47,958 nucleotides of DNA from a virus, in IMG/VR virus record IMGVR_UViG_3300020219_000021, positions 1 through 47,958 of that record; one strand, given 5' to 3'. Shown piece by piece: positions 3,053-23,120 of this stretch. The notes beneath the pieces were generated by a model that was given only the letters and a program-made list of their open reading frames with translations, did no database searches and was not told the DNA's origin. The position numbers and the translations under genes were made by a program. The stretch's first letter is position 1. The number at the start of each line of letters is the position of its first letter.

Positions 3053-3118
3053 ATCACAATTAAATCCGCCTTTTAAGGCACACGTTGAGCGCTTATGCGT
3101 TTTGCGTTTGGAGTTATT

Positions 3119-4282
3119 ATGGAAATTAAAACTACCCGTATTAATACTACTGCGTCTGAAAAACCTATGACTGTTAGGTGGTTAGCTATGGAGAACGGAG
3201 ATTTCTTCACTGCCGGTGATGCTGCAATATTGTTGGGCGTGAGCTCCCCGAATATTTACCAAATAGTAGAACGGCACAAGCTTTTGTTCCTGACTATGAG
3301 TCATAAACAAAAAAAATACCTACAAGAACGCAAAGTAATTTCAATCAAAGATCCACACTCCAAACTAGTCCCTCGTCAAACAATGGATGCCTTGGTAAAA
3401 ATTATTAACACACCAGAGACCAAAGCAATTTGGACTCAGATGCTGAAAGCGCTTCGCGATCCAAAAGAAAATGTGGCCCTTCAGTACGAAATGTACGGGA
3501 ACGAAGGATTGGCACGTCTTCAAGCAGAGTTGACTGCTAAACTAGCATTGACTATGGAACAACAGACGTACATAAATAATTGCTTACATGAAAGGCTTAC
3601 AGACATAGGCATACGTGCCCGCGACTCCTATTATACTGTGTATAATGAACTGCAGAACGGTACCGTAAATTCTTTCCGAAAGCTGATAATTGCGGAATTC
3701 GGTCCGGAAAAAACTGACACCAGCAGGAATATCGCCGGACATGAGTTGTACACAAATGCTGCTATCGGTAATCAGGGTAACTATCAAACAATAGTCGATC
3801 GCATATTGAAATTCACACCGACGGAAGAGCAGCTACGTCTCCTTAAGAGGGTTGAAGACTACAATAATGCCAATCCGAACAAAGCTGATTTCTATGCAAG
3901 AAGAATACAGGTCCAAGAGTTTAAGAAAAAACTCAACCTGGAAGATGAAATCAGTATCAGTGAAGCAATGTTAACGGTCGAAAAGTTCAAAAACCTTGCT
4001 GATGACGACTTTCTTCCATTGACCGCTGTGGCAAATGTATTGGGTGTGGACTCTGGCACACTTTTTAAAATGGCGAAGCGTGATGCTATTAAGTTCAATA
4101 AGATATCTCCAGAAGCTAGGTATGTAATGAAAGCTCGGGGCTTATTATCACCTAAAGATAGATCTTCCTACATGCTACCAAAGAAACTGTTCTCAGTTCT
4201 TGCGAACTATGTAGAAACGAAAGAAGCAGCTGAGTTCAAGCAGGCGCTCGCATGTAACGAAGTAACACTTAACCTAAATTAG
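3119..4282 (+). CDS. Two-domain DNA-binding protein, antirepressor-like
   Basis: I chose ATG 3119 because GGAG lies six bases upstream; an in-frame ATG at 3095 has no good site. The product is 387 aa. Near the N-terminus FTAGDAAILLGVSSPNIYQI reads as a MerR/excisionase-like helix-turn-helix. A second helix-turn-helix-like segment lies near the C-terminus (LTAVANVLGVDSGTLFKMAK), followed by a basic region, in the position where phage antirepressors carry a KilA-C type domain. The middle is charged and helical. It sits just after the operator array and contains one more, weaker copy of the palindrome in its coding sequence (3285-3309). It is probably the regulator acting on these sites or countering the repressor; identity with a named family is not established. 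Confidence 0.5.
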   Translation: MEIKTTRINTTASEKPMTVRWLAMENGDFFTAGDAAILLGVSSPNIYQIVERHKLLFLTMSHKQKKYLQERKVISIKDPHSKLVPRQTMDALVKIINTPETKAIWTQMLKALRDPKENVALQYEMYGNEGLARLQAELTAKLALTMEQQTYINNCLHERLTDIGIRARDSYYTVYNELQNGTVNSFRKLIIAEFGPEKTDTSRNIAGHELYTNAAIGNQGNYQTIVDRILKFTPTEEQLRLLKRVEDYNNANPNKADFYARRIQVQEFKKKLNLEDEISISEAMLTVEKFKNLADDDFLPLTAVANVLGVDSGTLFKMAKRDAIKFNKISPEARYVMKARGLLSPKDRSSYMLPKKLFSVLANYVETKEAAEFKQALACNEVTLNLN

Positions 4283-4302
4283 CCGAAAGGTGGCGATCAA
4301 GG

Positions 4303-4440
4303 ATGATTACTTTTAACAAAGCCAAACAGATGGAACAATTGGCAATGCAATGGAAAGAGAGAATTGAAAATGATATTATTGAATATATTTACATTAAGGA
4401 ACTGCTTGGTTGCTACGACCGCTTTCTGCCTTTTGACTGA
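4303..4440 (+). CDS. Possible 45-aa ORF overlapping the next gene
   Basis: MITFNKAKQMEQLAMQWKER and onward to RFLPFD. The upstream sequence CAAGG is too close to the ATG to be a good ribosome-binding site, and the second half overlaps the signal peptide of the next gene in another frame. Helical and charged. It could serve translational coupling or be chance. Confidence 0.25.
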   Translation: MITFNKAKQMEQLAMQWKERIENDIIEYIYIKELLGCYDRFLPFD

Positions 4441-4957
4441 TTGCGGCGCGGAACGCACAACAGTTGTTCAAGGAACGCCCGGACCCAAGGGTGACACAGG
4501 TACCGCTGGTGTTAATGGCATCGACGGAAGTGATGGCGAGACTGGCAGCAGTGGACATCAAGGCAGCACCGGTCCACAAGGTGAGACCGTGCAAGGTCCC
4601 GCAGGTTCAGACGGCACTTCATGTTCGGTATCGCCAATGATTGGCGGTGCGCTTGTCACTTGCTCAGATGGGACTCAGGCAGTAATCGTCAATGGTCTTG
4701 ATGGAGCTAACGGTACCGACGGCCAAGACGGAATAGACACCGAGCCCGGAGTATACGACATTATTGAAATAATAAATCCGTGTGGCGTTAACGGGCCGTA
4801 CGATGAAGTTTTGTTGCGGCTGCGTAACGGGCAGATCATTGCGTACTACAGCGCGGTCAACAAACAGCGTCTGGCTGTACTTGTGTCCGGTAGCTACATC
4901 ACCACAGACGGATACTCGTGTGCCTTCGCGATTGACGTCGACGGAAACATTATTTAG
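4370..4957 (+). CDS. Collagen-like repeat lipoprotein
   Basis: Begins MILLNIFTLRNCLVATTAF and has a lipobox-like LLTDC, so it is probably exported and lipidated. A run of Gly-X-Y triplets follows (GTPGPKGDTGTAGVNG, then GSDGETGSSG and GPQGET), typical of bacterial and phage collagen-like proteins that form trimeric rods. A second short Gly-X-Y stretch (GLDGANGTDGQDG) precedes a small C-terminal beta domain ending AIDVDGNII. ATG 4370 is chosen for its spacing from GAGAGAA; a TTG six bases upstream is too close. Gly-X-Y rods are usually in tail fibres, but the lipobox argues for a host-envelope protein, perhaps expressed from the prophage. Followed by a terminator. Confidence 0.6.
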   Translation: MILLNIFTLRNCLVATTAFCLLTDCGAERTTVVQGTPGPKGDTGTAGVNGIDGSDGETGSSGHQGSTGPQGETVQGPAGSDGTSCSVSPMIGGALVTCSDGTQAVIVNGLDGANGTDGQDGIDTEPGVYDIIEIINPCGVNGPYDEVLLRLRNGQIIAYYSAVNKQRLAVLVSGSYITTDGYSCAFAIDVDGNII

Positions 4958-5005
4958 TCATTGGGTTAATTGCTTAACCTAATATTCCATAAGCCTCCTC
5001 TATGC

Positions 5006-5037
5006 GCCCTGCCGAGGACACCTCGGTGGGGCTTTTT
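5006..5037 (+). terminator. Rho-independent terminator
   Basis: GCCCTGCCGAGG pairs with CCTCGGTGGGGC across an ACA loop (12 pairs including two G-T wobbles), followed by TTTTT. It ends the transcript containing the collagen-like lipoprotein and lies just before the ribosome-binding site of the next gene. Confidence 0.85.
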
Positions 5038-5047
5038 AGGAAAGTGC

Positions 5048-5302
5048 ATGAAATACTTAATATTTTTTATTCTTCTGAATAGCTGTATTCGGGTTCCAAA
5101 TTTCAAATTCGACACAAACGATTGTGTGTCCTCTGGGCGAAACGACTCAATAAAAATTCTAAATAGAACTGTCACATTTTTAGGCAGCTATTATGAAGTC
5201 GCCTACTGGTTCGCGCCTCTCAAGTACAATTCTAGCTTTCCTTCAACCGTCAGCCGGAAAGAACTTGAGTCAGAATATGAACTTACGGACTGTAACGAGT
5301 AA
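5048..5302 (+). CDS. Small lipoprotein (84 aa)
   Basis: ATG 5048 follows AGGAAAG. The product begins MKYLIFFILLNSC, a short hydrophobic signal with lipobox LLNSC, then a 70-residue mature part with two more cysteines. It lies right after a terminator, so it needs its own promoter or read-through. Small lipoproteins encoded in this way by temperate phages often act as superinfection-exclusion factors; that is inference only. Confidence 0.55.
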   Translation: MKYLIFFILLNSCIRVPNFKFDTNDCVSSGRNDSIKILNRTVTFLGSYYEVAYWFAPLKYNSSFPSTVSRKELESEYELTDCNE

Positions 5303-5310
5303 AACCGATA

Positions 5311-5339
5311 TTAGCTCGATAATAGATTTATGGTATAAT
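5311..5339 (+). promoter_or_regulatory. Sigma70-like promoter candidate
   Basis: A perfect TATAAT at 5334-5339 preceded after 17 bases by a weak TTAGCT. It lies in the only sizeable gap between the small lipoprotein and the recombinase operon. A 7-codon reading frame with AGGA upstream (ATG 5370) follows and could be a leader. Confidence 0.4.
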
Positions 5340-5390
5340 TTATGCTATAGACACTAATCGAGGATTAAAATGCCGAAGCTAAACTACAAT

Positions 5391-5470
5391 TGAATATTGG
5401 AGACTACCTTGGGAGATTTCATCGTTTTCGTGGCCTGCCTACTATTTTGGATTGTGCTCGCCTGGATCGC
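5391..5470. repeat. Direct repeat copy 1 flanking the serine recombinase
   Basis: Aligns without gaps to 6211-6290, exactly 820 bases downstream, with about 66 of 80 identical positions counted by eye. It covers the ribosome-binding site, the TTG start and the first transmembrane codons of a small membrane protein. Confidence 0.75.
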
Positions 5471-5603
5471 AAGCCTGGTGTCCCAACTACTATTTGCGTG
5501 TGTGCTCGGCTGCATCGCAGGCATAGTTTGCCCTCGCCTTGAAGAGGAGGCGAAGGCATGGCTGCGAACCGCTGTCCGTGATGTGGAGGATTCTGATGAG
5601 TAA
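5409..5603 (+). CDS. Small membrane protein (64 aa), TTG start
   Basis: TTG 5409 has GGAG seven bases upstream, the same arrangement as its paralogue at 6229. Starts (M)GDFIVFVACLLFWIVLAW and has two hydrophobic segments, then a charged C-terminal tail (EEEAKAW...DVEDSDE). The stop overlaps the recombinase start. Function unknown; a holin-like or exclusion role is possible. Confidence 0.5.
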   Translation: MGDFIVFVACLLFWIVLAWIASLVSQLLFACVLGCIAGIVCPRLEEEAKAWLRTAVRDVEDSDE

Positions 5604-10667: not shown

Positions 10668-11336
10668 ATGAGTATTTTTAACCAGATGGCCGCCGAATTT
10701 TCCGCACCCAACAAGTCCGTTGATGACATCCTGGTCGGTGACAATAGCCAATACTTAGGTGAAGGCGAGCACGAGGTAACCATCAAGGCAGCAGATTCGA
10801 GCAAAGTAGCTACTAAGCAGTACGTTCTGTTAGTCCTGGAAGACGCAGCGGGCAAGAGCATGAAGGACTACGTTTTCCTGATGAACAAGGAAAAGAATGG
10901 CTATAGCTACCACTTCCGAAAGCTTTTGTCCTCATTGTTTACCACAGAGGTCATTGAGAAGACCCGTGAAGCACTGCAAAAATTCATTGCGGCCAGTAAG
11001 GACAACAATGAGGTCTGTAACATTTTCACTGGTATGCAATTAAAAATCAAGGTGGGTCGCGAGAAACGAGGGTACTTAGTCAAGTCAACCGGTGACGACA
11101 AGTATGTTACAGAGGACGCTGAAACCGGCAAAACATTGCTCGGACCTTTCGATTCCTACAAGGAAGCCCGCGAATACATGAAGGCGGAGACAAGTTTGTT
11201 TCCCGCAAAAATAATCGTAGTAAGCAGGAGTGCAACCCATGGTGAGAGTAACATCAAAATACTCGACACTGCTATATCGCCAAAATCTGGCGCCAAGGCA
11301 GCCGGCGGCAATTCTGGAATGCCCAAGTTTAGCTGA
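10668..11336 (+). CDS. Single-stranded DNA-binding protein candidate
   Basis: 222 aa directly after the Sak4-like gene, the usual place for a phage SSB. The central part has OB-fold-like beta strands (GEHEVTIKAADSSKVATKQY, VLLVLEDAAGKSMKDYVFL) and the C-terminal tail is low-complexity Gly/Ala (SGAKAAGGNSGMPKFS). The classical acidic SSB tail is absent. Assignment rests mostly on context. The last 98 bases overlap the polymerase gene. Confidence 0.6.
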   Translation: MSIFNQMAAEFSAPNKSVDDILVGDNSQYLGEGEHEVTIKAADSSKVATKQYVLLVLEDAAGKSMKDYVFLMNKEKNGYSYHFRKLLSSLFTTEVIEKTREALQKFIAASKDNNEVCNIFTGMQLKIKVGREKRGYLVKSTGDDKYVTEDAETGKTLLGPFDSYKEAREYMKAETSLFPAKIIVVSRSATHGESNIKILDTAISPKSGAKAAGGNSGMPKFS

Positions 11337-13128
11337 GCTGCAAACCTACCTGCAGCCCGGTCTTTGGGCTGTGGACCTTGAGACCTGCGGCACGGACGCC
11401 ACAGACCCCTCCACCTTTATAGCCGGCATTGGCTTCGCGAATAGTGATCACTCGTTCTATGTTGATGTTCGCACACTGCCTGCCGGCACGGAGCAATACC
11501 TTAAACATTGCCTGATCCAGTCAGAGCTTATCGCATTCAACGTGATGTTTGACGGCTGCTTCTTGGCCCGATACACAGGACAATGGAATAACTGGATAGG
11601 CTGCAGCTACGGGCTGTTCAAGCAATTATCCAGCGAGGGCTATGAGGGTCAATCCTGGTCACTTGACACGGCCATTGACGGTGTCCTGGGCTGGGAAGTA
11701 AATAATAAAAAGATCATGGAAGCCGCCCTGAAAGAGCGCAAATTGACCAAAGCCACAATGTACCAGCTTCCGATCGATATTCTTGGGCTGTATTGTGCGC
11801 AAGACGCCGATGCCGCCTGGCAGCTTTGGAACTATCTAATGGATGTCGCAAAGCCTTATTCTCAACTGATTAAATATCATTCAGAAGACTTTTTAAACCT
11901 TGTGAAACTCGTGGCTGAACAACAGTTTCGAGGCATTTACATAGATCGAGATAAGCTATTTGCCCACCACGCTGATCTAGCTCAGCGAATCTATACCAGC
12001 ATGCAATCCTTTCTCTCTCATTCCTCTGTATCCCCTCACATTGAGGCCTTTAACACGGAAGTTCTCGCGGCATGGAAAGCTGCGGAGCCCTCGCCCAAGA
12101 CTGCATTGGGGAAACCGAGCGCCAGACATGAAGCCTGGTTCAAGAGAGGAGAAACGTTGCTAACTAAGTTGGGATTCAATCCTAATAGTAAACAACAGCT
12201 GGGCTGGCTATTCTTTGAAAAGTTGGGGTATAAACCGCTTAGCAAAACGCCGACGGGCCGGCCGGTAATTGATAAGAAGACACTGCCTTTTCTGGGAGAG
12301 CCTGGAAAAATCTTGGTAGCTTACAATAAGTCCATAAAAGAGCAGGGTTACGTTAGCCGATTAGTTGAAAAAAGTGAGGCCAGCAGCCAACTGCATCCTC
12401 AATTCAACAGCGTCGGGACCATCACCGGTAGGCTCGGAGGTTCCGGAGGGTTCAATCTTCAGCAACAACCAAAATCCAAAGGATATCTATCATGCCTAGT
12501 GGCAAGGCCTGGCCATAAGTTGGTGCAGGCTGATCTCCAGGCTGTCGAACCGGTAGTATTGGCGGAAGTTTCACGAGACCCAATACTCTGGTCAATCTAT
12601 GGACCAGATGCAAAGCCCAATGATATCTATCTGTTCATAGCAGGCAAGATACCCGCTATTGGCGCTAATATTCTTCAATATTATGATCCTGACAATCCGA
12701 CACCCGAAGGCATCTCTCAAGCCAAAAAACACTGCAAACGCGATCGGCAGATAGCGAAGACCCTGCAACTGTCCTGTCTATCCGAAGGCACGTTAATACG
12801 CGTACAAAATCGAGGATACATTCCAATTGAGTCGATTGCAGACGGCGATATTGTCTGGGACGGAGAGAAATGGGTTGCGACGGCCGGCGCAGTCTATATG
12901 GGAACTAAGAAATGTATCACTTTCGAGGGAGTGACCGCGACGCCAGATCACAAGTTTTTAACAAAGGATGGATGGATTGAAATTCAAGAAGCGAAAGAAA
13001 CCACACAATTGCTCCGACCTAAGCAGCCTGGTGCAACTTGGAGAGATGTTTGGTGCATGGCAGGTCAAATCATCAGATGTGCGGCGAGTTGGGCAGTATC
13101 GATATGTTCTCGTTGGATGTCCTCATGA
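11239..13128 (+). CDS. DNA polymerase A, N-extein plus N-half of split intein
   Basis: ATG 11239 has CAGGAG eight bases upstream. Residues 1-512 are the N-extein: a 3'-5' exonuclease domain (WAVDLETCG with Asp46/Glu48; AFNVMFDGC; YCAQDADA), a thumb/palm region and motif A (QADLQAVEPVVLAE). It ends in the first half of motif B, RDRQIAKTLQLS. At codon 513 (base 12775) an intein begins: CLSEGTLIRV with the nucleophilic Cys1, and block B GVTATPDHKF. The frame then runs to a stop at 13128, 117 codons of intein at most. The other polymerase half lies in a separate ORF at 13488. Trans-splicing would join LS to CAYGAG and rebuild motif B, giving about 679 aa. Confidence 0.85.
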   Translation: MVRVTSKYSTLLYRQNLAPRQPAAILECPSLAELQTYLQPGLWAVDLETCGTDATDPSTFIAGIGFANSDHSFYVDVRTLPAGTEQYLKHCLIQSELIAFNVMFDGCFLARYTGQWNNWIGCSYGLFKQLSSEGYEGQSWSLDTAIDGVLGWEVNNKKIMEAALKERKLTKATMYQLPIDILGLYCAQDADAAWQLWNYLMDVAKPYSQLIKYHSEDFLNLVKLVAEQQFRGIYIDRDKLFAHHADLAQRIYTSMQSFLSHSSVSPHIEAFNTEVLAAWKAAEPSPKTALGKPSARHEAWFKRGETLLTKLGFNPNSKQQLGWLFFEKLGYKPLSKTPTGRPVIDKKTLPFLGEPGKILVAYNKSIKEQGYVSRLVEKSEASSQLHPQFNSVGTITGRLGGSGGFNLQQQPKSKGYLSCLVARPGHKLVQADLQAVEPVVLAEVSRDPILWSIYGPDAKPNDIYLFIAGKIPAIGANILQYYDPDNPTPEGISQAKKHCKRDRQIAKTLQLSCLSEGTLIRVQNRGYIPIESIADGDIVWDGEKWVATAGAVYMGTKKCITFEGVTATPDHKFLTKDGWIEIQEAKETTQLLRPKQPGATWRDVWCMAGQIIRCAASWAVSICSRWMSS

Positions 13129-13684
13129 GGATGGGTGGAAGTTACTAGATCACATGGTTTCCGGGAAATCAAGGGGATGTCGGAAATGCAGTGCCGAGAC
13201 TCGCAAAAAGTATTCAACACCGCTAGAAATGTCACTTAGACAACGAGGAAAAAACGCCAAGCATCGCTGCGTAAATCCAAACGATCCAGGGTACGACCGG
13301 TACGGCGGCCGCGGCATTGAGTTTAGATTTGACTCAATCGAAACGTATGTCCGGTATTGTGTAACACTGCAAAACGCGGGCATCGGACTAGATATAGATC
13401 GTATTGACAACAACGGCCACTATGAGCCAGGTAACCTCCGCTGGGTTACTAGGGCGGAGAATATGCGTAACACTAGGAGTAATGTAAATGTCATCTGGGG
13501 TGGGATTGAGATGTGTTTCGAAGATTTTGCACGAGACTTTACCTTCCTTTCTCCTAACTATGCTCGAAGGTGTTTTGCGCGCGGCATGTCGCTTGAGGAA
13601 ATCTCAAACAAAAAGCCGGGTGTACGATCTGGTAAATTGCGGGCCGGACAGTCGGTTCATGGCCGGAAATTTGATTGTTCATAA
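12968..13684 (+). CDS. Free-standing HNH homing endonuclease
   Basis: Lies in a third frame between the two polymerase halves and overlaps both. From LGEMFGAWQVKSSD a zinc-binding-like region follows (GCPHEDG, RGCRKC), then the HNH core IDRIDNNGHYEPGNLRW and a C-terminal DNA-binding helix region (FARDFTFLSPNYARRCFARG). The start is uncertain: ATG 12968 is nearly on top of AAAGG, while TTG 12977 is 5-6 bases from it. It would cut intein-less polymerase alleles and spread the insertion. Homing endonucleases between split-intein halves are the known fractured-gene arrangement. Confidence 0.8.
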   Translation: MDGLKFKKRKKPHNCSDLSSLVQLGEMFGAWQVKSSDVRRVGQYRYVLVGCPHEDGWKLLDHMVSGKSRGCRKCSAETRKKYSTPLEMSLRQRGKNAKHRCVNPNDPGYDRYGGRGIEFRFDSIETYVRYCVTLQNAGIGLDIDRIDNNGHYEPGNLRWVTRAENMRNTRSNVNVIWGGIEMCFEDFARDFTFLSPNYARRCFARGMSLEEISNKKPGVRSGKLRAGQSVHGRKFDCS

Positions 13685-14189
13685 CTGTGCCTACGGTGCT
13701 GGCGCAGAGACAATTCACGAAACTCTAAATATGTCGGGAGTGGAGGTCACACTTGACGACGTTAAAAAGCTGCACAGAGAATATTGGAAGCTTTTTAAGG
13801 GCGTGAAAACATTCGAAAGCCGGCTGATTAGCATCTGGAAAACCTCTGGAGGCTGGGTACCATCCCTGTTCGGTGTCCCTCTCCCAATCGCTGAGAGGGC
13901 CATGAAAGATTCGATCAACAGGTTCTGCCAGCAGTCCGGACACCACATTTTAATGCGAATCCTTTACTGGGTCAGTGTCTTTAGGAAAGAGCAAAATATA
14001 ACCATGTTCCCATTCATTGTTGATTTTCATGACGAAACAATCTGGGAGGTACCTGATCACGACGTAGAACGAGCGAAACAGGCCATAATTATGGCAAGGG
14101 AAAAAGTAAATGACGAGCTTAATACAGAGATTAAATTCAAGATTGATCCAGAAGTGGGCTTATCTCTCGCAGATTTTAAGACAGAATAG
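13488..14189 (+). CDS. C-half of split intein plus DNA polymerase A C-extein
   Basis: ATG 13488 has a near-ideal AGGAG (13475-13479) eight bases upstream, inside the HNH gene, so this half has its own translation start. About 66 residues precede the splice site; the last part is a typical intein C-terminus, RVYDLVNCGPDSRFMAGN then LIVHN. The C-extein begins with Cys at base 13686: CAYGAGAETIHETL completes polymerase motif B (compare the KT...YGAG helix of T7-like polymerases). The palm motif C is FIVDFHDETIWEV, with the usual His-Asp-Glu. A later in-frame ATG at 13560 would give a 42-residue IntC but has no ribosome-binding site. Confidence 0.8.
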   Translation: MSSGVGLRCVSKILHETLPSFLLTMLEGVLRAACRLRKSQTKSRVYDLVNCGPDSRFMAGNLIVHNCAYGAGAETIHETLNMSGVEVTLDDVKKLHREYWKLFKGVKTFESRLISIWKTSGGWVPSLFGVPLPIAERAMKDSINRFCQQSGHHILMRILYWVSVFRKEQNITMFPFIVDFHDETIWEVPDHDVERAKQAIIMAREKVNDELNTEIKFKIDPEVGLSLADFKTE

Positions 14190-18185: not shown

Positions 18186-19223
18186 ATGGTACCAGTAATC
18201 AGTAGAAAAAACATCCCATTAATGCCTTGTTCTGAAAAGCGGAGCAGAAAATTAATGGAAAAAGGACAGGCTAAAGCGATGTGGAAGAATCAAATCTTCT
18301 GCATTCAGCTTTTAAAAGACCCATCAGATAGCGGCTACCAGGATGTTACGATTGGGATTGATCCGGGAAGCAAGAAAGAAGGTCTGACTGTGGTCACCGA
18401 TACCAAGGTTATTTTGAACATCACAACCGAGGCGGTCACTACTGTAAAAGATGCGGTAGAAACTAGAAGAATGTTGCGTCGGTCTCGGCGAGGGAGAAAC
18501 ACCCCTTACCGGAAGTGCAGATTCAATAGAGTTATTGGCCTAATCCCCCCGTCAACGAAAGCAAGATGGAACCAAAAGATCAGACTGCTCGGCCTTCTTC
18601 AAAAGATGCTTCCCATCACGGTTGTCAATTTAGAGGACATTAGTGCTGTTACTAAAAAGGGACAGCGAAAATGGAATCTTAATTTCTCTCCGCTGCAAGC
18701 GGGGAAGGCATATTTCAACCAACACATAAAGTCTATTGGACTCATGCTGCATACTACTCAAGGATTTGAAACCAAAGAGCACAGGGATTTAAGAGGCTTT
18801 AAGAAAACAAAAAAGAAACTGGATAACGTATGGGAGGCCCATTGTGTCGACAGCCACTCTCTATGTGAAATAGCTACGGGGACGACCATCGCGCCATTTA
18901 AGGGAATGTATATCTTCGAGAATTTTAGTTTCTCTAGAAGGCAGTTACATGTCCAGAACTTTTCAACGGGCGGGAAGCGAAAAGAATATGGAGGGACGGT
19001 TTCTTTGGGAATACCTAGAGGTTCGTTGATAAGACATCCCAAGTTTGGACTGGCCTATGTTGGCGGAACGAGCAAGGGATTTATTTCTTTGCACAGTCCT
19101 ACAGGGAAGAGAATCACTCAATCAGCTAAGAAGACGGATATAACAATTCTAAACAACAACAAATGGAGAACGCAATTCCTCCCTTGCCTTAAGGCAGGGG
19201 TCTCCTTGCGTGAAAAAAAATGA
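18186..19223 (+). CDS. isrB: IsrB-family RNA-guided nickase (RuvC only, no HNH)
   Basis: 345 aa; AAAGGAG precedes ATG 18186. The N-terminal PLMP domain is clear (VISRKNIPLMPCSEKRSRKL). RuvC-I is TIGIDPGSKKEG (Asp59), the arginine-rich bridge helix is ETRRMLRRSRRGRNTPYR, RuvC-II is VVNLEDIS (Glu150) and RuvC-III is EAHCVDSHSL (His219, Asp222). Only about 70 residues separate RuvC-II and III, and they lack an HNH motif, which separates IsrB from IscB. The C-terminal target-interaction region keeps FSRRQLHVQNF, GGTVSLGIPRGSLIRHP. All catalytic residues are present, so nicking of the non-target strand is expected. The last residues read through the right-end hairpin and the stop overlaps the next start codon. 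Confidence 0.85.
   Translation: MVPVISRKNIPLMPCSEKRSRKLMEKGQAKAMWKNQIFCIQLLKDPSDSGYQDVTIGIDPGSKKEGLTVVTDTKVILNITTEAVTTVKDAVETRRMLRRSRRGRNTPYRKCRFNRVIGLIPPSTKARWNQKIRLLGLLQKMLPITVVNLEDISAVTKKGQRKWNLNFSPLQAGKAYFNQHIKSIGLMLHTTQGFETKEHRDLRGFKKTKKKLDNVWEAHCVDSHSLCEIATGTTIAPFKGMYIFENFSFSRRQLHVQNFSTGGKRKEYGGTVSLGIPRGSLIRHPKFGLAYVGGTSKGFISLHSPTGKRITQSAKKTDITILNNNKWRTQFLPCLKAGVSLREKK
19180..19200 (+). repeat. Right-end subterminal hairpin of the IsrB element
   Basis: CCCTTGCC pairs with GGCAGGGG across TTAA with one G-T wobble; CGCAA (19171) and TTGCG (19206) can extend the structure. It lies inside the isrB 3' coding region, as in other IS605-type right ends. Confidence 0.65.
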
Positions 19224-20457: not shown

Positions 20458-20835
20458 ATGAATAGACCTATCATTCAAACAACTAATAGCGCAGGAGCAG
20501 ACTTGCTGTCGGCTCAAGATATCATCATTCAACCAGGTGCAACGGTCTCAGTGCAAACTCAATATGTATATGATTTAGACAGTGCCGCGCTTGTGTTAGG
20601 GCGATCGGGTCTAGCATTTAATAAAGGTGTAGTTTGCTCTCATGTAGGCCTTATCGATGCTGACTATCGTGGTTGCATTAGCGTGCTTATAAGTAACACT
20701 GGCTCAACCCCTTTCTATATTTATCCGGGCGATAGAATAGCACAGCTAGTTGTAATTAAAACTGATACCGCTGCGCATTTTGAAACCAAAGGCCAGGCTA
20801 GGGTAGGCGGGTTTGGGAGTACAGATGAAGAATAA
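20458..20835 (+). CDS. dut: dUTPase
   Basis: 125 aa with all five trimeric dUTPase motifs: SAGADLLS, LGRSGLAFNKG, GLIDADYRG, GDRIAQLVV and the C-terminal RVGGFGSTDE. Hydrolyses dUTP to dUMP and pyrophosphate, keeping uracil out of phage DNA and supplying dUMP to the neighbouring ThyX. AAAGGGGG lies upstream. Overlaps thyX by 11 bases, so the two are co-translated. Confidence 0.92.
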   Translation: MNRPIIQTTNSAGADLLSAQDIIIQPGATVSVQTQYVYDLDSAALVLGRSGLAFNKGVVCSHVGLIDADYRGCISVLISNTGSTPFYIYPGDRIAQLVVIKTDTAAHFETKGQARVGGFGSTDEE

Positions 20836-21451
20836 GACTGAACTAGTCTGGATAACGCCGGATGCAGAACGGCTGATAGTAAACATGGCAAGGGTGTCCA
20901 GTGGCCCCTCCAAGGCGAAAGCTCCTGATGCTAAGTTGCTGGCCTACCTCATTGCCCACAAGCACTGGAGCCCATTTCAGATGGCCTCCATGTGCGTTGA
21001 GGTGACAACCGGCAGAGCTATTAGTGCTCAGCTGGTCAGACACCGCAGCTTGAATGTACAGGAGTTTTCACAGCGCTATTCCTCTGACATCAGCTTTCAG
21101 AAAGTAGGGGCACGGAGGCAGGACACCAAGAACAGGCAAAACTCCATTGATAACCTCTCTGAGGAGGATAGGAGCTGGTTCGCTACTCAACTCTCCTGTC
21201 TGAACGCGGTTAGCGGGCTACTTTACGAAGAGGCTTTGGCTAGAGGCATAGCGAAGGAGTGTGCGAGGTTTCTGCTGCCAATGAACACCACAACCAAGTT
21301 GTATATAGCTGCCACTTTGCGTGACTGGATACACTATCTAGCCGTGCGTACTGACCCTACTACGCAGCTGGAGCATAGACAACTGGCCGAGGAAATACAG
21401 GCTATTTTTATCGAACAATTCCCTGTCATAGCCGAAGCAGTTTTTACTTAA
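20825..21451 (+). CDS. thyX: Flavin-dependent thymidylate synthase
   Basis: 208 aa from ATG 20825 (GGGAG upstream). The ThyX signature RHRx7S is present as RHRSLNVQEFSQRY (residues 72-85), with the earlier HWSPFQM and the C-terminal RDWIHYLAVR region that binds FAD and dUMP. Converts dUMP to dTMP using methylene-tetrahydrofolate and NAD(P)H. It lies between dut and nrdJ in a deoxynucleotide operon. Confidence 0.93.
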   Translation: MKNKTELVWITPDAERLIVNMARVSSGPSKAKAPDAKLLAYLIAHKHWSPFQMASMCVEVTTGRAISAQLVRHRSLNVQEFSQRYSSDISFQKVGARRQDTKNRQNSIDNLSEEDRSWFATQLSCLNAVSGLLYEEALARGIAKECARFLLPMNTTTKLYIAATLRDWIHYLAVRTDPTTQLEHRQLAEEIQAIFIEQFPVIAEAVFT

Positions 21452-21473: not shown

Positions 21474-23120
21474 ATGATTTACGGGCCACAGTCGTCGTTC
21501 GCTTTGAACATTATGAACAATAAATATGCCAAGACTAAAGCAGATGGCACAAAAGAAAACTGGGAGGAAATTGCACGCCGAGTTACCGACGAAGTTATGT
21601 CGGCCGTGCCTGCCGATGCAGAACTGAAGCAGCAGATATTCGAGATGATACGGAGTCGCAAATTCATGCCTGGCGGGCGGTATCTCTATGCTGCTGGTAA
21701 TGATTATCACCAAACTCAGAACTGCCTTTTGCTGCGTGCTGAGGACAGCAGGGAAGGCTGGTCAGACCTGATGTATAAGTCCTCCATGGCTCTCATGTCC
21801 GGTGCGGGCATTGGGGTTGACTACTCTGCTGTAAGGCCGGAGGGTTCCCTTATTAAACGTACAGGCGGCTTTGCTACAGGTCCCATAGCTTTGATGAAGA
21901 TGGTGAATGAAGCAGGCCGAAACATTATGCAAGGCGGCTCTAGGCGTTCTGCTATTTGGGCTGGGCTGAACTGGGCTCACCAAGATGTTATCAAGTTTAT
22001 CGTGTCAAAGAATTGGTCAGAGGATATTCGCAAGCTGAAGACCAAGGACTTTAACTTTCCGGCAACTTTAGATGGAACTAATGTTTCAGTAATATTAGAT
22101 AAGCCTTTCTTTGATGCCTATCATGACAGTAAAAATGGAATGAATAGTCATGCCCATAATGTGTATTGGGCTGTCGTCCGGCAGATGCTTTCCACAAGCG
22201 AACCTGGATTTTCTGTTGACTATGATAACCCACGAGAATCATTACGTAATGCTTGTTGTGAAATAGTGAGCGAAGATGATTCTGACATCTGCAACTTAGG
22301 TTCTCTAAACTTGGCCCAGATAGACAGTCTTGAGGATTTTGTCGAATGCGTAAACTTGGGTACAACCTTTCTTCTGGCGGGAACCGTCTATTCACACGTT
22401 CCTTATGCACAGGTTGACAATGTTCGTACTAAAAACAGACGCCTTGGACTGGGGTTGATGGGGATACATGAGTGGCTGCTTAAGCGAGGAAAGTCTTATG
22501 GTCCAGATGCTGAACTACAGGAATGGCTTGAGCAATATGTAAATCATTCCACAAGCACCGCCATCGTTAGAAGCTTGTGTTTTGATGTTTCAACCCCGAT
22601 AAAGACGAGAGGAGTCGCTCCTAACGGCACGATTGGGATAGTTGCAGAAACGACTACCGGTATTGAACCCATCTTCTGTGCTGCCTACAAGCGACGCTAC
22701 TTGAAGGGAGAGTCCTGGCACTACGAGTACGTATTAGACCCTACAGCAAAGCGTCTAGTTGATGCTGGAGTGTCTCCTGACGCTATTGAAGATGCTTATA
22801 CTCTCGCTGCAGATGTCGAGCGGCGGGTTGCCTTCCAAGCCTGGGTGCAGCAGTTTGTCGATCATGCCATCAGCTCCACTATTAACATGCCGGCCTGGGG
22901 CTCTGAGCTGAATAATGAGTCCAAGGTGCAGGACTTCGGCACCATGCTGCTGAAATATCTGCCCAAGATGAGAGGCGTAACTGCCTACGCGGATGGATCT
23001 CGAGGCGGTCAACCCCTCACACCGGTTAAGTACCAAACAGCCATGAAACACGTCAGTCAGATATTTGTCGAACAGGCTGACGTTTGCTCAATCTCAGAGA
23101 GAGGTTCCTGCGGAGAATAA
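21474..23120 (+). CDS. nrdJ: Class II (B12-dependent) ribonucleotide reductase
   Basis: 548 aa; AGGAG upstream. Active-site residues are recognisable: Cys84 (TQNCLLL), NACCE at 259-263 (Asn, thiyl Cys, Glu) and DICNLGSLNL (Cys273). The phosphate-binding loop APNGTIG and the C-terminal cysteine pair CSISERGSCGE are present. No small subunit (NrdB) gene is nearby and the N-terminal ATP cone is missing, which fits a short, monomeric or dimeric class II enzyme using adenosylcobalamin. It would supply dNTPs with or without oxygen and depends on host B12. Confidence 0.85.
   Translation: MIYGPQSSFALNIMNNKYAKTKADGTKENWEEIARRVTDEVMSAVPADAELKQQIFEMIRSRKFMPGGRYLYAAGNDYHQTQNCLLLRAEDSREGWSDLMYKSSMALMSGAGIGVDYSAVRPEGSLIKRTGGFATGPIALMKMVNEAGRNIMQGGSRRSAIWAGLNWAHQDVIKFIVSKNWSEDIRKLKTKDFNFPATLDGTNVSVILDKPFFDAYHDSKNGMNSHAHNVYWAVVRQMLSTSEPGFSVDYDNPRESLRNACCEIVSEDDSDICNLGSLNLAQIDSLEDFVECVNLGTTFLLAGTVYSHVPYAQVDNVRTKNRRLGLGLMGIHEWLLKRGKSYGPDAELQEWLEQYVNHSTSTAIVRSLCFDVSTPIKTRGVAPNGTIGIVAETTTGIEPIFCAAYKRRYLKGESWHYEYVLDPTAKRLVDAGVSPDAIEDAYTLAADVERRVAFQAWVQQFVDHAISSTINMPAWGSELNNESKVQDFGTMLLKYLPKMRGVTAYADGSRGGQPLTPVKYQTAMKHVSQIFVEQADVCSISERGSCGE

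Follow-up and report, generated by a model that had tools for sequence, protein, structure and literature searches.

Split inteins around endonuclease genes, and HNH endonucleases hidden in a second reading frame, are each already known. In the fractured genes reportedly described by Dassa et al. in 2009, the halves of a split intein are said to interrupt a gene, with a free-standing endonuclease gene of a Vsr-like family between them. The locus that we analyze here shares this plan: in a virus sequence of 47,958 nt (IMG/VR virus record IMGVR_UViG_3300020219_000021; the whole stretch is hereafter called the window), the halves of a split intein break up a family-A DNA polymerase (PolA) gene, and an endonuclease gene lies between the two. 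Here, however, the endonuclease is an HNH protein, and its open reading frame (ORF) overlaps both halves in a third frame.

In Pseudomonas jumbo phage MIJ3, as in the window, a replicative polymerase is divided by a split intein with an HNH gene, orf154, between the halves (PMC6892783; LR588166). The MIJ3 polymerase is a PolB, though, and its genes stand in tandem: we computed overlaps of 8 nt (N/HNH) and 0 (HNH/C), compared with 161 nt (N ORF/HNH) and 197 nt (HNH/C ORF, from the coordinates, given a C-half start at ATG 13488) in the window. Tandem, essentially non-overlapping ORFs are a usual trait of split inteins, if not a strict definition, and they are present in MIJ3 but not in the window. 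The ShiLan domain is a hidden HNH in a phage methylase, in which its authors identified no intein or intron splicing domain (PMC11855218). In common with the intein family analyzed here, it has an HNH in another frame of an open insertion and a stop codon, TAA, buried in a final TAAC; its insertion is continuous, unsplit and without splicing motifs, whereas in the window intein blocks are present and the frame is broken. Hamiltonella phage APSE-1 has an annotated HNH ORF, P46, in the +1 frame inside the continuous intein of polymerase P45. This intein is in the cis state, not split as in the window, and the cis form is therefore already visible in one public annotation; we found no discussion of the P45/P46 overlap in the accessible literature. 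Finally, the dCTP deaminase intein of cyanophage CL131, shown by its authors to excise itself in E. coli (PMC6293099), carries its HNH domain in frame as part of one polypeptide, unlike the separate, out-of-frame HNH ORF of the window.

In the accessible literature we found no description of inteins with overlapping-frame endonucleases as a class, or of their split form, although a preprint on actinobacteriophage inteins of non-canonical architecture (bioRxiv 10.1101/2025.01.02.630785) may contain one. The overlapping three-frame form, which links split inteins to hidden HNHs, appears to be undescribed in the accessible literature.

Results

Anatomy of the polymerase locus

We consider it very likely (probability about 0.85) that motif B of a phage family-A DNA polymerase here holds a naturally split, class-1-type intein, with a homing-type HNH gene nested between and overlapping the halves in three frames, and that the polymerase is trans-spliced. 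The source is a single metagenomic contig, possibly a fragment. Its three ORFs lie at 11239–13128 (frame 1), 12968–13684 (frame 2) and 13488–14189 (frame 3), which confirms to the base what a sequence-only reading of this DNA had proposed (Table 1). The intein blocks named in that reading, CLSEGT and TPDH at the end of the first ORF and LIVHN followed by Cys near the start of the last, are all present. The class 1 residues are complete: C1, TPDH (the TxxH of block B), VHN and C+1. Block F has also been given as VYDLVNCGPDSRF and block G as LIVHN/C (slashes mark junctions). The gene between the halves, read earlier as an intact HNH ORF, is confirmed as such, and its stop TAA is buried within CAT-AAC, the codons of the intein's final His-Asn. 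The halves are separate ORFs with separate predicted starts: they occupy different frames, the N frame contains 15 stops, and the C-half has an AGGAG followed by ATG 13488.

The exteins join without a seam, since on the phrog_17 (phage DNA polymerase) profile the N-half covers positions 669–1072 and the C-half 1071–1229. Joining LQLS to CAYGAG rebuilds motif B and gives a gapless family-A polymerase of 512 + 167 = 679 aa, the length that had been anticipated. Against an intein-less relative about 40% identical (L002, LHLS/AGYGAG), the joined exteins align with no gap at the junction. The earlier proposal, a fractured-gene arrangement in which the halves of a split intein in PolA motif B enclose an HNH gene, is thus supported. 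No second PolA is present in the window record, and DNA and protein searches of phages and IMG/VR returned no close relative of its polymerase, so that a ratio of nonsynonymous to synonymous substitution rates (dN/dS) was not available for the window itself.

Table 1 Features of the split polymerase locus, in positions of the window. SD, Shine-Dalgarno sequence; HMM, hidden Markov model.
Feature	Position	Strand	Evidence or remark
SD AGGAG, polymerase N-half	11226..11230	+	Sequence; 8 nt 5' of ATG 11239
PolA N-extein, 512 aa, 3'-5' exonuclease and palm up to motif B, C-end KTLQLS	11239..12774	+	Pfam DNA_pol_A E 3.9e-18; phrog_17 E 2.2e-40
Intein N-part: C1 (CLSEGT) at 12775, block B TPDHKF at 12940, tail to TGA 13126-13128	12775..13128	+	N-intein HMM 96.4 bits
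Possible SD AAGGA for HNH (start TTG 12977, spacing 8)	12964..12968	+	Sequence; alternative start ATG 12968
HNH endonuclease, 238 aa, +1 frame relative to intein N	12968..13684	+	phrog_3377 HNH E 5.2e-27; alignments
HNH core motif IDRIDNNGHYEPGNLR	13394..13441	+	Near-invariant across HNH alignments
SD AGGAG, polymerase C-half	13475..13479	+	8 nt 5' of ATG 13488
C-half ORF leader, 43 codons, overlapping HNH ORF	13488..13616	+	
Intein C-part: block F RVYDLVNCGPDSRF, block G NLIVHN, last base 13685	13617..13685	+	C-intein HMM 46.6 bits
PolA C-extein, 167 aa, from C+1 AYGAG (motif B to C-terminus), plus stop	13686..14189	+	phrog_17 E 1.8e-14; Pfam DNA_pol_A E 4.5e-8

From this anatomy we infer splicing in trans, endonuclease activity and homing. 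Three proteins would be translated: PolA-N with the intein N-part, the HNH nuclease, and the intein C-part with PolA-C from ATG 13488. The intein halves would assemble and trans-splice LQLS to CAYGAG, yielding the 679-aa polymerase, while the free HNH would cut intein-less alleles, into which the element would then be copied. With one PolA in the record, replication of the phage would presumably follow only after trans-splicing, but the record may be fragmentary.

Hidden HNH genes in continuous and split inteins

We gathered HNH relatives from viral contigs and genomes and located the intein N-part, the HNH and the intein C-part with three profiles in the three forward frames. The survey comprises 81 distinct complete loci (both intein parts present), including the window. 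The profiles derive from a subset of the surveyed loci and only the best 80 matches per scan were taken; the counts given here are not prevalences. Near-copies occur among the loci (for example L010–L019 and L136/L138), which makes the number of independent cases smaller.

At no locus among the 81 do the HNH and the intein have the same reading frame. In 61, the cis state, a single stop-free frame runs from the N-part to the C-part and the HNH is read in a different one, offset by +1 in 57 loci and by +2 in four. The other 20, among them the window, are split, with stops within the intein frame. The window has in common with the cis inteins an HNH at +1 relative to the intein N-part; the stop-free intein frame is what it lacks. 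Beyond what the sequence-only reading had recognized, then, the window is the split form of an overprinted element, and the same nuclease family is hidden in continuous cis inteins elsewhere. It belongs to a phage intein family whose HNH is always out of frame: most members examined are continuous inteins with the HNH hidden in an overlapping frame, and the window and its split kin seem to have lost the intein frame, nearly all of them with an apparent start of its own for the C-half.

Among the split loci, the offsets are N=f, HNH=f+1 and C=f+2 in 19 of the 20, that is, in the window and 18 other contigs; this may reflect inheritance, as most belong to one clade. Only in L126 (3808–4596) is the C-part back in frame f, despite six intervening stops. 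The majority of split loci occupy the PolA site GRWSG/S...NLQNLPSR, and L003, whose polymerase is 40% identical, shows the same f/f+1/f+2 layout at another PolA site (ILNR/C...SN/CVQSTGH). At motif B, the insertion site in the window, cis versions are found in other phages (e.g., L007, L092, L157, L166).

Several loci showed further features. L113 and L128 each contain a neighboring pair of inteins with hidden HNHs, of which one is split and the other cis. The L003 polymerase (3100–5505) seems to be interrupted again, after GTLTGRCSGG, resuming near NCQQLPKAREYMD; another nuclease-like ORF (4891–5439) lies at this upstream interruption, which is possibly an intron or another hidden element. 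Salmonella phage FSL SP-101 (L086, KC139511.1; 2415–5513) has a polymerase annotated as a single coding sequence with a motif-B intein (KAC LHRHT...VAHN/CELGLGYEGG) and, in the +2 frame, an HNH match that is not annotated; numerous other Salmonella phage records gave HNH matches (by search only). In Streptococcus Javan255 (L084, 2380–5262) and Gardnerella phage vB_Gva_AB1 (L178, 1359–4262), a cis intein lies inside the "DNA polymerase" annotation; both inteins are 40–44% identical to that of L166 over the full length of the latter and have an HNH match with no annotated HNH feature. With the NCBIfam and Pfam models of inteins and HNHs, the window and the related sequences are missed or barely detected.

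Selection on the overlapping frames

For each locus we drew 1000 synonymous shuffles of the HNH codons and counted the stops expected in the other frames. Across the 61 cis loci, no stops were observed in the intein frame against 640.6 expected, a contrast to be read with the fact that openness of this frame partly defines the cis calls; yet no locus has one to five stops. The third frame of the same loci contained 832 stops (787 expected). No such depletion remained in the intein frame of the 20 split loci (367 observed, 333.5 expected) or of the window by itself (15 observed, 16.0 expected), and with its 15 stops the window is therefore a split relative rather than a cis member.

The conserved protein is the HNH. 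Pairwise amino acid identity ranges from about 0.55 to 0.98 for the HNH and from 0.27 to 0.92 for the intein frame (one near-identical pair left out), and differences at HNH codon positions 1, 2 and 3 number 787, 585 and 1466 between cis pairs and 367, 265 and 797 between split pairs. The HNH frame is under purifying selection. Selection on the cis linker thus appears to act mainly to keep it open. An AlphaFold model of the cis intein of L166 agrees with this reading: residues 1 to ~86 and 280–309 form a high-confidence HINT domain (predicted local distance difference test, pLDDT, ~90 or more), while the ~190-aa linker between these folded ends is disordered (pLDDT below 50). The best Foldseek matches of this model, which represents a cis relative only, are inteins (E ~5e-3, probability 1.0), with Npu DnaE first.

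Translation signals

Start signals were found for both the HNH and the C-half. An SD of at least 5 bases precedes 40% of the first HNH ATGs (75 found in the 81 loci), compared with 4.5% of control ATGs. In L166, the SD AAGGAGGT and the HNH ATG are built from the intein codons for K-E-V-I-T-Y-D. HNH stops recur at set places within the intein C blocks. For the C-half, an ATG lies exactly 9 nt 5' of block F in 14/20 split loci and in 0/61 cis loci, and at 14 of these 20 the HNH and the C-half overlap by exactly 20 nt. Among the 18 split loci with an ATG no more than 60 nt from block F, the nearest one has an SD in 15, against 14.5% of control ATGs. The window (ATG 13488) and L003 (ATG 6716) are long-leader exceptions, each with AGGAG at a spacing of 8.

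Alternative explanations

Could the three frames be an artifact? The sequence-only reading had itself named the outcome that would overturn it: two single-base errors breaking up a normal intein whose HNH domain is in frame. The window is a single metagenomic contig and its two frame changes are both +1, as this account would allow, but the same offsets recur in 18 other contigs, the HNH is in frame at no surveyed locus, the intein frame contains 15 stops, and an SD and ATG of its own precede the C-half. We reject it as extremely unlikely. Only slightly less improbable is programmed ribosomal frameshifting, in which a +1 shift at each overlap would make one polypeptide from the three ORFs, followed by splicing in cis. 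Large overlaps and two +1 steps would suit such a mechanism; the SD-bearing C-half starts just 5' of block F in most split loci do not, and the cis relatives keep the intein frame open, so that no shift is needed. A self-splicing RNA intron, carrying the HNH and removed before translation, is about as improbable as sequencing error. Phage HNHs are common in group I introns, and L003 has other upstream interruptions, but Rfam gave no match at the gathering threshold anywhere in the window, where the HNH is flanked by intein blocks with full catalytic residues. An ARAGORN scan of the window found nothing.

More weight, though still little, goes to a degenerate locus: a frameshift-broken intein, a pseudogene polymerase, or halves that work unspliced. 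In its favor, selection against stops is no longer seen in the intein frame, and the polymerase is without a close relative for dN/dS. Against it, the extein halves are each intact and conserved, no splice residue is missing, the C-half start is led by an SD, this is the only PolA in the record, and the split state has been maintained and diversified across a clade of 18 rows in the intein tree.

Some observations weigh against a trans-spliced split intein with a nested HNH gene. Standard intein models match the window only weakly (TIGR01445, E 0.06, below cut-off), and the AlphaFold model of the HNH had no fold match in the PDB. There are two candidate HNH starts, ATG 12968 and TTG 12977, and the 43-aa leader of the C-half is longer than in most split loci. 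Finally, the HNH and the intein of the window are both divergent and sit on long branches of their respective trees.

Possible origin of the split

We mapped the split label onto two unrooted trees. The HNH tree requires five changes of label, and branches with good support force at least three of these. Three changes, one of them forced, are required by the intein tree, which places 18 split rows in one clade with the window and L003 apart. Both trees are unrooted and so fix neither the number nor the direction of the splits. Splitting probably began from cis inteins with a hidden HNH, a direction suggested by the out-of-frame HNH already having its own start and by a linker that seemingly serves no function in itself. 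We give about even odds to overprinting as a birth route for split inteins, of which the window would be one independent instance: an HNH gene that brings its own start enters the linker of a mini-intein out of frame, both frames stay open and, after the C-part has acquired a start codon, the intein frame is set free and the split becomes permanent.

Other genes in the window

Near the polymerase, 8903–9796 matches a CRISPR-associated family (phrog_1706), perhaps a Cas4-like nuclease, and thymidylate synthase (20813–21451) and the ribonucleotide reductase large subunit (21474–23120) are encoded. A free-standing ORF at 18186–19223 matches the "HNH endonuclease" families phrog_2214 and phrog_119, plus phrog_32617; by eye only, its product has the look of an IscB/IsrB-type RuvC protein, and we regard it as a candidate.

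Discussion

These loci have a bearing on the origin of natural split inteins. A single endonuclease family occurs in unbroken and in split inteins, and both states are found at PolA motif B, so that the path from cis to split is directly testable. The family also bears on how phage polymerases are annotated: in Streptococcus Javan255, Gardnerella phage AB1 and Salmonella Jerseyvirus SP101, plain-gene polymerase annotations conceal an intein and an unannotated nuclease match. In addition, its split members are candidate natural split inteins that could serve as tools.

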